DNA of 64,000 bases, from assembly GCF_002868735.1 (NCBI RefSeq), contig NZ_CP025611.1, positions 1-64,000 on the forward strand, read 5' to 3'. The notes beneath the pieces are model-generated. The model saw only the letters and a list, made by a program, of their open reading frames with translations, did no database searches and had not been told where the DNA came from. Numbering within the stretch: the first letter of the stretch is position 1; each line of letters begins with the position of its first letter. Shown in pieces: positions 4,385-8,478 of the stretch. The translations under genes were made by a program, and so were the position numbers. This DNA is from Niveispirillum cyanobacteriorum (lineage in GTDB: Bacteria; Pseudomonadota; Alphaproteobacteria; Azospirillales; Azospirillaceae).

Positions 4385-5506
4385 ATGGAACAGACTGCCG
4401 ATCTTGAGATTTTCGTGGTGACGACGCCCGGCCTGGAACCCGCCTTGTGCGCGGAGATGCAGGAGAAGGGCTTCGCCAAGCCGGTCATGGCCAAGGGCGG
4501 TGTCACGACGCATGGCCCCTGGTCAGAGGTCTGGCGCGCCAATCTGGAACTGCGCGGCGGTGCCCGCGTCCTCGCCCGCATCGGGTCCTTCCGCGCCATG
4601 CATCTGGCACAGTTGGACAAGCGTGCGCGCAAGTTCCCCTGGGGCGACGTGCTGCGCGCCGATGTGCCGGTGCGGGTGGAGGCCAGTTGCAACAAGTCGC
4701 GAATCTATCATGCCGGTGCCGCCGCCCAGCGCATCGCCAAGGCCATTGCGGAGGAGTTGGGCGCCCCCATCACCAAGGATGCCGAACTGGTGGTGAAGGC
4801 GCGCATCGATGATGATCTCTGCACCTTTTCCATCGATACCTCGGGCGAGGCGCTGCACAAGCGCGGCTATAAGGAGGCCGTGAACAAGGCGCCGATGCGG
4901 GAGAATCTGGCCGCCATGTTCCTGCGCCAGTGCGGATACACCGGCACGGAACCGGTGGTCGACCCCATGTGCGGTTCCGGCACCTTCGTGATTGAGGCGG
5001 CAGAGATCGCCGCCGGCCTGCATCCCGGCCGCGCCCGGCCCTTTGCTTTTGAACAGCTGGCCAGCTTCGATGCCGCAACCTGGGCCACCCTGCGCGGCAC
5101 GCCCACCGCCGCCGACACGCACCTGCGCTTTTATGGCAGCGACCGCGACGCCGGGGCCGTGAAGATGAGCACGGCCAATGCGGAGCGGGCGGGCGTGGGC
5201 GCCATCACGACGTTCCGCGCCCATGCCATCAGCGACCTGGAACCGCCCGAAGGCCCCCCCGGCCTCGTCATCGTCAACCCGCCCTATGGCGGCCGCATCG
5301 GCGATACCCGACAGCTCTACGGCCTCTACGGCGCCTTCGGCAAAACCATGCTGAACCGCTTCAAGGGCTGGCGCGTCGGCGTGATCACCAACGAGGCGGC
5401 GCTGGCCAAGGTCACGGAACTTCCCTTCCTGCCCACCCTGCCGCCTGTGTCGCATGGCGGGTTGCCAGTGACGCTCTATCGGACGGGGGTGTTGGGGGGA
5501 GTTTGA
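4385..5506 (+). CDS. THUMP-domain RNA methyltransferase (RlmL N-terminal type)
   Basis: A 373-residue protein. An N-terminal RNA-binding THUMP region (to about 150) is followed by a Rossmann methyltransferase. The SAM-binding loop VVDPMCGSGTFVIEAAE lies near 190-205 and the catalytic IVNPPYGGRIGD near 298-309. The NPPY tetrad is typical of enzymes methylating an exocyclic amino group of a base. The size and order fit the stand-alone homologue of the N-terminal half of E. coli RlmL, which makes m2G2445 in 23S rRNA; the exact target here is inferred. The gene sits between a terminator and the DUF29 gene. Its last 230 bases are repeated in decayed form at 6173-6388. Confidence 0.88.
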   Translation: MEQTADLEIFVVTTPGLEPALCAEMQEKGFAKPVMAKGGVTTHGPWSEVWRANLELRGGARVLARIGSFRAMHLAQLDKRARKFPWGDVLRADVPVRVEASCNKSRIYHAGAAAQRIAKAIAEELGAPITKDAELVVKARIDDDLCTFSIDTSGEALHKRGYKEAVNKAPMRENLAAMFLRQCGYTGTEPVVDPMCGSGTFVIEAAEIAAGLHPGRARPFAFEQLASFDAATWATLRGTPTAADTHLRFYGSDRDAGAVKMSTANAERAGVGAITTFRAHAISDLEPPEGPPGLVIVNPPYGGRIGDTRQLYGLYGAFGKTMLNRFKGWRVGVITNEAALAKVTELPFLPTLPPVSHGGLPVTLYRTGVLGGV

Positions 5507-5644
5507 CGCAGGAGCGGGCTGGCGGTACCGGTTTGATTGCCTGTGGCTGCTCGTGTCAGGCTGCCCCCTGACCGCAACCAAGATGGGCAGACGATCCCAA
5601 GGCTGTGCTATGATAGCCCCGTTTCAAAAGAGGGAAACGTTTGC

Positions 5645-6085
5645 ATGAGCGAAAATCTCTATGAGACGGATTTCTACGCTTGGGCCAACCAGCAAGCGGC
5701 ATTGCTGCGGGCCGGCAAGCTGTCAGCGGCGGATATTGAGCATATTGCTGAGGAAATTGAGAGCATGGGCAGGACGGAGAAGCGGGAACTGGTCAGCCGT
5801 TTGACCGTGCTTCTCCTGCATTTGCTGAAATGGCAGTTCCAGCCTGGATTGAGGTGCAATAGCGGGCGGCTGACGGTCAAGGAACAGCGGTACCGACTGT
5901 CCGACCATCTGGCCGACAACCCCAGCCTCAATGCCCGCCTCCCGGAGGCCATCTGCAATGCCTACCGCCTTGCCCTGGTAGAGGCAGAGCGGGAAACCGG
6001 CCTGCCCGAAACGACCTTCCCGGTTGAGTGCCCCTGGTCCTTTGATCAGCTTTCAAGCCCGTCATTCTGGCCGGATCAGCACTAA
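5645..6085 (+). CDS. DUF29 family protein
   Basis: A 146-residue protein starting at ATG 5645, with GAGGGAAA about 10 bases upstream; the same frame is open further upstream but lacks a better start. It contains the features of DUF29: YETDFYAWANQQAALLRAG, the DIEHIAEEIESMGRTEKREL helix, and LLLHLLKWQFQP. DUF29 proteins are small, helical, abundant in cyanobacteria and some alphaproteobacteria, and have no settled function. The gene lies between the complete methyltransferase gene and its decayed tail copy, so the duplication and this gene may have arrived together. Confidence 0.85.
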   Translation: MSENLYETDFYAWANQQAALLRAGKLSAADIEHIAEEIESMGRTEKRELVSRLTVLLLHLLKWQFQPGLRCNSGRLTVKEQRYRLSDHLADNPSLNARLPEAICNAYRLALVEAERETGLPETTFPVECPWSFDQLSSPSFWPDQH

Positions 6086-6172
6086 GCGGCTTCGGTCCCG
6101 CCTGCGCCTGAGTTTCTCGTTGCCGGTTATGGCTTTGTGCCCAGCGCCGTTGGCAGGCCAGACGCCCCAATG

Positions 6173-6388
6173 CCCGGCCTCGTCAACCCTCCCTATGGCG
6201 ACCGCATTGGTGACACGCGACAGCTCTACGGCCACTAAGGCGCCTTCGGCAAAACCATGCTGAACCGCTTCAAGGGCTGGCGCGCCGGCGTGCTCACCAA
6301 CGAGGCGGCGCTGGCCTAGGTGACGGAACTGCCATTCCTGCCGACCCTGCCCCCGTGTCGCATGGCGGGCGGCCGGTGACGCTGTATG
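6173..6388 (+). pseudogene. Decayed duplicate of the methyltransferase 3' end
   Basis: This stretch aligns by eye with about 5258-5484, the C-terminal part of the THUMP methyltransferase gene, over about 215 bases at roughly 85-90% identity. It still encodes VNPPYGDRIGDTRQLYG and AFGKTMLNRFKGWRAGV. It carries two in-frame stops (TAA near 6236, TAG near 6317) and a one-base loss in the CTGCCCCCGTG segment, and the upstream half of the gene is absent. It is an untranslated relic. With the intact gene it brackets the DUF29 gene. Confidence 0.85.
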
Positions 6389-6427
6389 GTGCTGAACTAT
6401 AGTAAAATTCATATAGATTTTAGTAAA

Positions 6428-7558
6428 TCACTTTTTATACCCTGTTGCTGGGGCTTGGATAGTAAGTAATGACCAATCTCCTGGAGCGCGAGGGCTAAAT
6501 TTGATTGCATTATTGAGTTTCAATCCTGATCCGCCTTCATCGGTTTTAATAATAAGAAAATCAGGTATAAGTTTAACGGCTTCACCAATAAAATTTTTTA
6601 TTTTTTCATCTGGAATGAAGATGCCAGATTTAAATGACAAAAACTCATCAATAATGTCCACCAGAGTTGCATCTCCATCATTAACTCTATTACTATTTTT
6701 AAATATAATGTCCTGAAATGGTTTAGTTACGGGAAATCCGTCGCCGTACTTTGTATTTTCTGAATGATTCCAAATAACATAGTATATCCACTTTTGACCG
6801 AAATCTATTGAATAGGAAAACAACCTAGCAAGAGACTCATACTGGGTGTGGGTCTCTTGCAGTTCAGTTTTATGTAGCAGTCTTCTGAAATTTTCCCATG
6901 AATTTTGATTATATTTATTCTTTATATTTTCGATATATGTAGACATACATTTTGCACGATCAACTGCCTCTTTCTTGAGTAGATCTATTCTTTCACGATT
7001 TTGTTCCTCTATTTCTCCTTTTTCCACTTTATCTGATGCCTTTTCTTTATCTTTAACACGCCCCTTCACGAGATGATTAACGGAGAAGGCTGCCGTTTTG
7101 TGGGCTGACTTTGCTTGAAATACAATCAATCTATAGCCGCCCTCTCTTTTTTCGCCACAACTACATTTTTTTAGGTCTGACTTACACCTATTGCAAAATG
7201 GTAGGGTTAACGCGAAATCCGTACCCAACCTACTTTCATGACTGCCAGAATGGCCCCAGCCGATTTCAGGTGCAATCACCTCTGATTGTGAGTAAGAAGC
7301 TGCAAAAACCCAAGAAAATAACGACGTCGACAAATGCCCCATGAAACTTGCAGTATGCGTTTCTTCGTCTAGATTTGATCTTGTGGAGGTCCAGAATGTC
7401 TCGAATATAGCCTGAACAAACGCACACCCCATCAAATCACTACTAGAAATATTGCCTATATTTTCATCTACCTTAAATTCGTATAATTTAGAACCACCCG
7501 ATAATGATTCGATTTTGTAATTCATACTGCCCTTGAGTAAATTCAATATTGATGTCAT
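6428..7558 (-). CDS. AT-rich orphan protein; possible PD-(D/E)XK nuclease with zinc knuckle
   Basis: A 376-residue protein of no family I recognise. Its base composition is far more AT-rich than anything around it, and it is rich in Lys, Asn and Ile, so it was almost certainly acquired. The start at 7558 has GGGGA seven bases upstream; M12 is an alternative. Residues 108-150 are suggestive: E108, a strand with D114 (RLGTDFALTL), four cysteines C122, C125, C132, C134 (CNRCKSDLKKCSC), then a strand ending in Q148-A-K150 (YRLIVFQAKSA). D followed by (E/Q)xK across a beta hairpin is the catalytic layout of PD-(D/E)XK nucleases, here with a zinc-binding insertion. A lysine/glutamate-rich helical region follows (165-215). 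No membrane segment or signal peptide is seen. The nuclease idea is inference. It is a single gene beside tRNA-Glu, a common insertion site. Confidence 0.7.
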   Translation of the reverse strand: MTSILNLLKGSMNYKIESLSGGSKLYEFKVDENIGNISSSDLMGCAFVQAIFETFWTSTRSNLDEETHTASFMGHLSTSLFSWVFAASYSQSEVIAPEIGWGHSGSHESRLGTDFALTLPFCNRCKSDLKKCSCGEKREGGYRLIVFQAKSAHKTAAFSVNHLVKGRVKDKEKASDKVEKGEIEEQNRERIDLLKKEAVDRAKCMSTYIENIKNKYNQNSWENFRRLLHKTELQETHTQYESLARLFSYSIDFGQKWIYYVIWNHSENTKYGDGFPVTKPFQDIIFKNSNRVNDGDATLVDIIDEFLSFKSGIFIPDEKIKNFIGEAVKLIPDFLIIKTDEGGSGLKLNNAIKFSPRAPGDWSLLTIQAPATGYKK

Positions 7559-7647
7559 TTTAAAGTCCCCGATTCCAAGCTGCGATCGAATTTTATTATT
7601 AAATCAACAGGCTTTTGCAAGATTAAATGCCGTTAACCGCCAAACGC

Positions 7648-7681
7648 AAAAAGCCCCGCTGGTCACCAGCGGGGCTTTTTT
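7648..7681 (-). terminator. Terminator of the tRNA-Glu transcript
   Basis: A long GC-rich stem (AGCCCCGCTGG with its complement) is flanked by A and T runs on both sides, so it can work in both directions. It lies 11 bases past the tRNA 3' end and separates it from the AT-rich gene. Confidence 0.9.
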
Positions 7682-7691
7682 GATGATCGCT

Positions 7692-7767
7692 TGGCGTCCC
7701 CAAGGGGATTCGAACCCCTGTTACCGCCGTGAGAGGGCGGTGTCCTAGGCCTCTAGACGATGGGGAC
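7692..7767 (-). tRNA. tRNA-Glu (anticodon CUC)
   Basis: The minus strand folds as a full cloverleaf. The acceptor stem is GTCCCCA with TTGGGGAC, the anticodon arm CCGCC-CTCTCAC-GGCGG puts CTC in the anticodon position, and the T arm is AGGGGTTCGAATCCCCT. CCA is encoded at the 3' end (7694-7692). The identity is glutamate, reading GAG. A terminator follows. tRNA 3' ends are frequent integration sites and the AT-rich gene lies directly downstream; I did not find a second copy of the tRNA 3' end marking an element boundary. Confidence 0.95.
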
Positions 7768-7803
7768 TAGAGCCGTGCGAGGCGCGCTTTCTATGCGAAA
7801 GGG

Positions 7804-7836
7804 CCGGGGGTGATCAAGCGGTTTTTTCACCCCCGG
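7804..7836 (-). terminator. Terminator after the TlpA-like gene
   Basis: A perfect 10-base-pair stem (CCGGGGGTGA with TCACCCCCGG) lies 16-48 bases past the stop of the thioredoxin-like gene. The loop is 13 bases and there is no clean T run after the stem, so efficiency is uncertain. Confidence 0.55.
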
Positions 7837-7851
7837 TCCATTTTTCTGTCA

Positions 7852-8478
7852 TCAACGTATGGCCCAGCCGATCAGGGCTTTGGCCTCTGCTCCGTCCCAA
7901 TGCGCGGCGCCGGCCAGACGGCCAACTTCGCGCCCCTCGGCATCGACCAGGATCGACAAGGGCAGGCCTTCCTTCAGGGGGAAGGCCTTCATGCTGGTCA
8001 TCTTCTGGTCCAGATAGATGGGCAGGGATTTGATGCCCGCCTTCTCAAAAAACGGCCCGACCTCGTTCATGCCACCCCGGTCCACGGAGATGGCGACGAC
8101 CTGGAACTTGTCACCGCCAAGGTCGGCCTGCAACCGGTCCAGCGCCGGCATTTCGCGGATACAGGGCGCGCACCAGGTGGCCCAGAGATTGATCAGCAGC
8201 GCCTTGCCCTTGAAGGACGCCATATCGACCGGGTTGCCATCCTTGTCGGTGATGGTCATGGGCGGCAGGGCAGGGCGGTCGGGGCTGGCCACGAAGGGGC
8301 GTGCCTCCCCTTGGAAAACCGGCATGGCGGCGGGGGTTGCCGGGGCTTCGGCGGTGGTTGCGGGGGCCGCCGCCGGTGTGGCCGGCGCGGAACTTTCCTT
8401 CTTCTCGCCGCAGCCCCCCGTTACGAGAATTGCTGTACCCACGGCCACGATTGTTGCGATGCGTCGGAAAATCGCCAT
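7852..8478 (-). CDS. TlpA-type thioredoxin-like lipoprotein
   Basis: A 208-residue protein starting at ATG 8478. The N-terminus is a lipoprotein signal with a lipobox ending at C23 (ILVTGGC), followed by an Ala/Pro/Thr-rich linker to about 55. Then comes a thioredoxin fold with the active site WCAPC (C103, C106) after the strand [12 protein letters not shown]. The cis-proline region is [15 protein letters not shown]. TlpA/ResA-like proteins reduce disulfides in periplasmic partners, often for cytochrome c or oxidase maturation; the partner here is unknown. The gene is divergent from argH with a 76-base gap that must hold both promoters. In alphaproteobacteria such a gene beside argH is a common arrangement. 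Confidence 0.88.

Follow-up and report, generated by a model that had tools for sequence, protein, structure and literature searches.

The AT-rich orphan gene beside tRNA-Glu in the window (the whole stretch of DNA analysed, the first 64,000 nucleotides of the Niveispirillum cyanobacteriorum contig NZ_CP025611.1) belongs to a rare family without a name, in which a nuclease-type signature is well preserved and which has a suggestive connection to a membrane domain from conflict systems. On balance, and with modest confidence, we read it as a horizontally acquired effector of a counter-invader system, a nuclease of PD-(D/E)XK type that stands here without a membrane partner. Taken separately, that the protein is a nuclease appears likely from its motifs, and a role against invaders is fairly probable. 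The gene and the features within and around it are:

6428–7558, minus strand: orphan gene (376 aa), predicted PD-(D/E)XK-type nuclease with a C-terminal domain of unknown function (intact ORF, composition, family alignment).
7109–7366, minus strand: predicted nuclease core, residues 65–150, with E65/E66 (motif I), D114 (motif II) and Q148-A-K150 (motif III), invariant in 4/4 full-length proteins.
7157–7195, minus strand: C122-x2-C125-x6-C132-x-C134, a possible zinc-binding insertion between motifs II and III, in the window protein only.
6764–6895, minus strand: conserved part of the C-terminal domain, with E222, R226, W257, Y260, W263 and H265, invariant in 4/4 full-length proteins.
6388–7637, no strand: foreign AT-rich segment with the orphan as its sole gene (composition; similarity breakpoints against the sister species G1188 and G1190).
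6158–6387, plus strand: degenerate copy of the 3' end of an rlmL-like gene, with one TAG and one TAA, forming the left border of the foreign segment.
7648–7680, no strand: terminator-like hairpin with a T run, between the orphan and tRNA-Glu (self-complementary match and blastn; common to the sister species).
7692–7767, minus strand: tRNA-Glu (CTC), found by ARAGORN; in G1188 and G1190 an integrase-type gene comes after a copy of its 3' end.

The orphan frame runs for 376 codons from an ATG with no internal stops, and an SD-like GGGGA lies ahead of its start (by eye). Its GC content is 0.372 (GC3 0.32), which corresponds to z = -10.2 against 1131-bp stretches outside the gene in the 64-kb window (mean 0.646, s.d. 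0.027, minimum 0.536). The gene is present once in its own 6.05-Mb genome. Searched at E values up to 1, the protein had no match in Pfam or PADLOC and a single noise row each in NCBIfam and PHROGs (E 0.18; E 0.23); the PDB sequence search was empty both for the protein and for a 4-row family profile. The first-pass annotation, made from the letters of the sequence, had described a gene of alien composition, of no known family and standing alone beside a tRNA, and had placed D114, Q148, K150 and the four cysteines where we find them; all of this was borne out. In a promoter scan of positions 5400–8000, two promoter-like sites were found, both on the plus strand, and none on the strand of the orphan (shuffles gave a mean of 2.4). 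A missing promoter match says little for an AT-rich foreign gene.

Similarity to the sister species G1188 ends at about 6388 and restarts at 7638, inside the hairpin before the tRNA (the restart is also seen against G1190), so the segment of about 1.25 kb in between, which holds the orphan only, is foreign. On its left stand, in order, an rlmL-like gene (4385–5506; Pfam UPF0020 and RlmL_1st), a DUF29 gene (5645–6085) and the degenerate rlmL 3'-end copy. When translated, this copy (6158–6367) is 83% identical to the window's own rlmL-like protein; at the DNA level (matched over 6180–6386) its identity is 90.0% with rlmL of the window, 90.4% with rlmL of G1188 and 90.9% with rlmL of G1190. These near-equal values do not point to one source. 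On the right, the tRNA-Glu gene shares the orphan's strand and lies 133 bp from the orphan's start, behind a hairpin that was called a terminator by eye and is absent from the list of the terminator scan.

The tRNA-Glu has a history of its own in the genus. The arrangement of a tRNA 3'-end copy followed by an integrase-type gene was traced in two sister genomes of ten searched, G1188 (L023:9829–11457) and G1190 (L073:1315–2925), with the full tRNA region about 17 kb further on in G1188 and about 8 kb in G1190, the sizes of the marked elements; hence the tRNA is an attachment site in the genus. The integrase-type gene of G1188 carries DUF6538 over the Pfam cut-off and matches Phage_integrase weakly (E 0.023), and that of G1190 was named by eye. 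In the genome G551, a single contig holds rlmL and the tRNA region, which are oppositely oriented and separated by about 21 kb. The parts of the elements that were read have a GC content of 0.48 in G1188 and 0.57 in G1190, and a serine-recombinase-like ORF was noted by eye in G1188. In the interval from rlmL to the tRNA hairpin, which is the orphan's place in the window, G1188 carries a frame of 279 aa (L023:8817–9656) that drew no Pfam match up to E 0.1; its G1190 copy is near-identical (274/280 positions, stop counted).

The orphan itself sits on the far side of the hairpin, outside the place of the sister-type integrase element. The 17-bp tRNA end has one exact copy within the 64-kb window, the other match (39641) having three mismatches, and no integrase or transposase was spotted by eye in the ORF list from rlmL to the tRNA, where Pfam was run on the orphan and the DUF29 ORF. 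Lacking a second tRNA end and an integrase, the orphan was ruled out as cargo of a tRNA integrase, a scheme that the sister loci do fit. The earlier argument, that single-gene nucleases at tRNA sites are a common form of phage-defence system, is thereby weakened: this tRNA-Glu is used for integration in two sister species, but the orphan, beyond the hairpin and with no second tRNA end, falls outside such an element.

The family looks very rare. Three full-length relatives were found, on a Neorhizobium plasmid, in one Rhizobiaceae genome and in one Azospirillaceae genome, with about 20–29% identity to the window protein; a fourth relative is an Agrobacterium fragment consisting of the C-terminal half only. 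A tblastn search of 72,556 plasmid records with the single protein gave one match, on the conjugative Neorhizobium plasmid (E 7e-10, 26%), and the Neorhizobium protein used as query led to the Agrobacterium fragment (45.5% over 156 residues). Profile searches of whole genomes returned a single member, in G1104 (E 2.3e-18), from 394 of Rhizobiaceae, and a single one other than the window, in G1195 (E 8.7e-15), from 82 of the order. No relative besides the window's own, where included, emerged from 398 phylum genomes searched with the single protein, 385 class genomes searched with a 2-row profile or 347 genomes of another order searched with a 4-row profile; the genome samples overlap and the searches differ in sensitivity, so counts of relatives are not additive. 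Nor was a relative found by tblastn in phages with two family members, or by scanning viral contigs with a few short peptide patterns each, which can miss distant ones; a viral origin was rejected on these searches, within the limits of short-pattern scans. Peptide-pattern scans of genome contigs with two single members, which share this blind spot and are no proof of absence, also returned none.

None of the four family members matched PADLOC (PADLOC-DB 2.0.0) at E up to 1, and none exceeded a Pfam cut-off, where two unrelated noise rows appeared (E 0.034 and 0.07). The Azospirillaceae relative is foreign in composition (GC 0.42 versus 0.62 around it); the two Rhizobiaceae relatives differ less from their surroundings (0.53 and 0.54 versus 0.58 and 0.59). 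Some other matches were discarded. That in G079 (Rhizobiaceae profile search, E 5.8e-4) contains nine internal stops. Rows from Halarchaeum, Arthrobacter, Thermus, two Sinorhizobium and Cupriavidus (E 0.9–7) were taken as chance, two of the six loci being inspected: the annotated gene beneath most of the Halarchaeum match lies on the other strand, and the Arthrobacter match shares its strand, though not its frame, with a small annotated gene that it overlaps. A weak profile match on an unannotated Halarchaeum frame (E 0.045) was likewise set aside. The Agrobacterium fragment (L003:5977–7684, on a pAt plasmid) keeps the family's C-terminal domain without the nuclease core and adjoins a DUF6602 gene, which looks by eye to be spread over two frames.

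Evidence on the family as such comes from n = 4 full-length sequences: the window protein, L002:7971–9089, L007:1387–2568 and L009:727–1932 (minus strand). Residues invariant in all four are M1, T57, S58, E65, E66, T69, S71, G74, P97, W101, E108, G112, D114, Q148, A149, K150, E222, R226, W257, Y260, W263, H265, L335 and G345, and E222, R226, W257, Y260 and W263 are also kept in the Agrobacterium fragment (compared in L002 numbering). Conservation of D114 and K150 in homologues had been proposed as a check on the nuclease assignment, and D114, Q148 and K150 are indeed kept in 4/4 proteins. With an upstream acid, the conserved residue set of PD-(D/E)XK enzymes is present in all four sequences. 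Its order, E, then GxD, then QxK, is that of motifs I, II and III of the superfamily, and it is on this motif alone that we infer a nuclease, presumably of PD-(D/E)XK fold. For the superfamily, the order of the motifs and their roles are set out in PMC1913061, and a restriction-endonuclease-fold family with QxK is given in PMC3482391. The arrangement of invariant residues into motifs I, II and III recurred in 52/100,000 column shuffles, the pattern (E, GxD, QxK) having been written after the alignment was seen. AlphaFold2 models of the window sequence alone, without relatives, reached mean pLDDT values of 32.2 and 41.5, too low to yield a usable fold.

As a nuclease of the PD-(D/E)XK superfamily, the orphan protein would be a phosphodiesterase that depends on metal. 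Within a predicted N-terminal catalytic core of about residues 40–165, E65/E66, D114 and Q148-x-K150 would bind metal and activate water; trigger sensing or partner binding is the probable task of the C-terminal domain, which has roughly 200 residues. Although the family shares with the superfamily an invariant E, D and Q-x-K in motif order, it differs in having no profile match to any curated family searched and in possessing an extra C-terminal domain (W257/Y260/W263); moreover, an insertion with four cysteines, private to the window protein, lies between motif II and motif III. In 3/3 full-length relatives the linker between these motifs is shorter and lacks cysteines 122, 125, 132 and 134, which is why the cluster is regarded as private to the window protein. 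These four cysteines may bind zinc. A zinc knuckle is, however, unlikely as an essential feature of the family and was rejected as a common one, and the initial view of it as part of the enzyme's design finds no support.

Mrr was picked for profile comparison because it also has G-x-D and Q-x-K. Seven aligned Mrr proteins (E. coli Mrr and six plasmid homologues, two further Mrr loci being left out) keep G-I-D and Q-x-K (D203, Q219, K221), where the orphan family has GxD and QAK. Beyond this likeness the two differ in that no profile–profile similarity is seen: hhalign of the family profile against the seven proteins gave a Prob of 0.2, with 51/200 column-shuffled profiles equally good, and membership of Mrr was ruled out on this comparison. 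Among the Pfam rows of the four members, taken to E = 1, there was neither Mrr nor any other nuclease family.

In 2/3 full-length relatives, a gene for a PF20712 (CyanoTRADDas_TM) protein lies within 1.5 kb of the nuclease gene. PF20712 is a scarcely described membrane domain whose Pfam name derives from TRADD-N-associated proteins of cyanobacteria. In the Rhizobiaceae genome (L021, G1104) it is the ORF before the nuclease gene, 0.56 kb off (E 4.4e-16), and in the Azospirillaceae genome (L022, G1195) it faces the nuclease gene at 1.4 kb (E 6.5e-16), with an IS3-type element (by eye) standing between the two; both matches are over the Pfam cut-off. The PF20712 gene is the only gene besides the nuclease that Pfam finds to be common to these two genome loci, and direct blastp of one against the other at E 1e-4 matched the nuclease alone. 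Gene order and orientation differ between the loci and in one of them the IS3-type element intervenes, so there is no conserved operon.

Matches to PF20712 over cut-off occur in 2/11 hand-picked genomes or records (G1104 and G1195, once each, at the nuclease loci), 1/180 Rhizobiaceae genomes (G1104, the centre of the draw), 3/81 genomes of the order (one being G1195), 1/98 phylum genomes and 0/14 control genomes; these counts leave out matches under the Pfam cut-off (G768, G796, G1177 and G042). That two such rare genes lie so near each other at two separate loci is not easily ascribed to chance, though the number of loci is small and their gene orders differ. The window differs from both: PF20712 was not found in its genome, nor on the Neorhizobium plasmid record. 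At L022 there is also, some 3.8 kb away from the family's gene, one for pP_pnuc_2 (a predicted pPIWI-associating nuclease, E 8.3e-8), which is unmatched in PADLOC. At L021, two ORFs 5–8 kb away match PADLOC viperin models (1.7e-10 and 1.9e-9) and were read as other radical-SAM proteins, not viperins.

The comparison of homologue neighbourhoods that the first-pass annotation had called for supports it in part: a membrane gene of conflict-system type lies near two of the three full-length relatives, and a gene for a predicted pPIWI-associating nuclease also near one of these; the window genome and the Neorhizobium plasmid lack PF20712. The orphan, which that annotation took for a single-gene system, is not necessarily one. 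According to the available part of PMC8195603, the effectors fused to bacterial TRADD-N include restriction-endonuclease-fold domains; a pairing of this nuclease with PF20712 is not described in that part. The words 'CyanoTRADDas' and 'PF20712' occur in no paper of the collection covered by full-text search.

On the reading we prefer, this rare, horizontally moved family would be the cutting effector of a counter-invader system, with the PF20712 protein of two relatives as the putative membrane anchor, sensor or co-effector of the nuclease and a window copy that travelled or survived alone. The foremost of its rivals, in itself unlikely, holds that the conserved residues are structural and that the protein is no nuclease, being for example a DNA-binding or scaffold protein of a different fold. 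Such a protein would fit the lack of profile similarity to a PD-(D/E)XK family (Pfam, PDB, Mrr hhalign) and the single-sequence AlphaFold2 models, which gave no fold. It leaves the invariant E...GxD...QxK, in the right order and spacing and rare by chance, to coincidence, and the other invariant residues point to no other known enzyme.

Next in rank, and improbable, is the view that this PD-(D/E)XK-type nuclease works for a mobile element, in recombination, transposition, plasmid competition or plasmid maintenance, and not for host defence. On its conjugative plasmid the Neorhizobium relative directly follows repC, and genes annotated as transposase and TniB come 3.5–5 kb downstream; the Azospirillaceae relative adjoins the IS3-type element recognized by eye; and the window gene stands as a lone insertion close to the tRNA at whose end integration occurs in sister species. 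All three settings would suit such a role, against which stand the missing second tRNA end, the failure to see an integrase or transposase between rlmL and the tRNA, and the PF20712 gene as the one other gene common to both genome loci. The least probable rival overlaps our preferred reading for the family and sets the window copy apart as a stranded remnant of a nuclease and membrane-protein pair, either inactive or in the course of being lost. In its favour, PF20712 has no match in the window genome, just a C-terminal fragment is left of the Agrobacterium relative, the left border is a degenerate gene copy and the promoter scan found nothing on the orphan's strand. Decay sits poorly, however, with an intact frame of 376 codons that keeps all family-invariant residues and an SD-like sequence before its start, and the Neorhizobium plasmid copy is intact though it too has no partner on its record.

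If the counter-invader reading is true, it adds a nuclease family that all four profile libraries searched miss and ties PF20712 to a nuclease effector in alphaproteobacteria. It would also name residues for mutation (E65/E66, D114, Q148 and K150) and a candidate partner gene. Were the orphan merely one more stray restriction-like nuclease, it would still be a useful seed for a family model.

A wider and more speculative proposal, possible at best, is that of an undescribed membrane-linked counter-invader family of alphaproteobacteria. Here a PD-(D/E)XK-type nuclease, equipped with a sensor domain of its own, would be controlled by, or act with, a CyanoTRADDas_TM two-helix membrane protein; the effector slot would be exchangeable (this nuclease, TIR/SLOG or PDC-S42), and in the window lineage only a self-sufficient nuclease, enlarged by a zinc-binding insertion, would remain. 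Among the other PF20712 loci read, 3/4 have a defence-type gene nearby: a PDC-S42 phage-defence-candidate gene adjoins that of G1137 (E 2.9e-111), a TIR/SLOG gene lies about 1.4 kb away in G030, and a gene annotated as an AbiGi antitoxin lies about 1.2 kb away on a Rhodococcus plasmid. At the fourth (L067, G1152), three ORFs scanned with Pfam or PADLOC included no recognisable defence gene, and the membrane protein itself gave a weak PADLOC row (E 0.0021). Directly beside the PF20712 gene of this Azospirillaceae locus is a 339-aa protein (L067:4614–5633) with no match in Pfam or PADLOC, which by eye resembles HEPN-type proteins and may be another partner.
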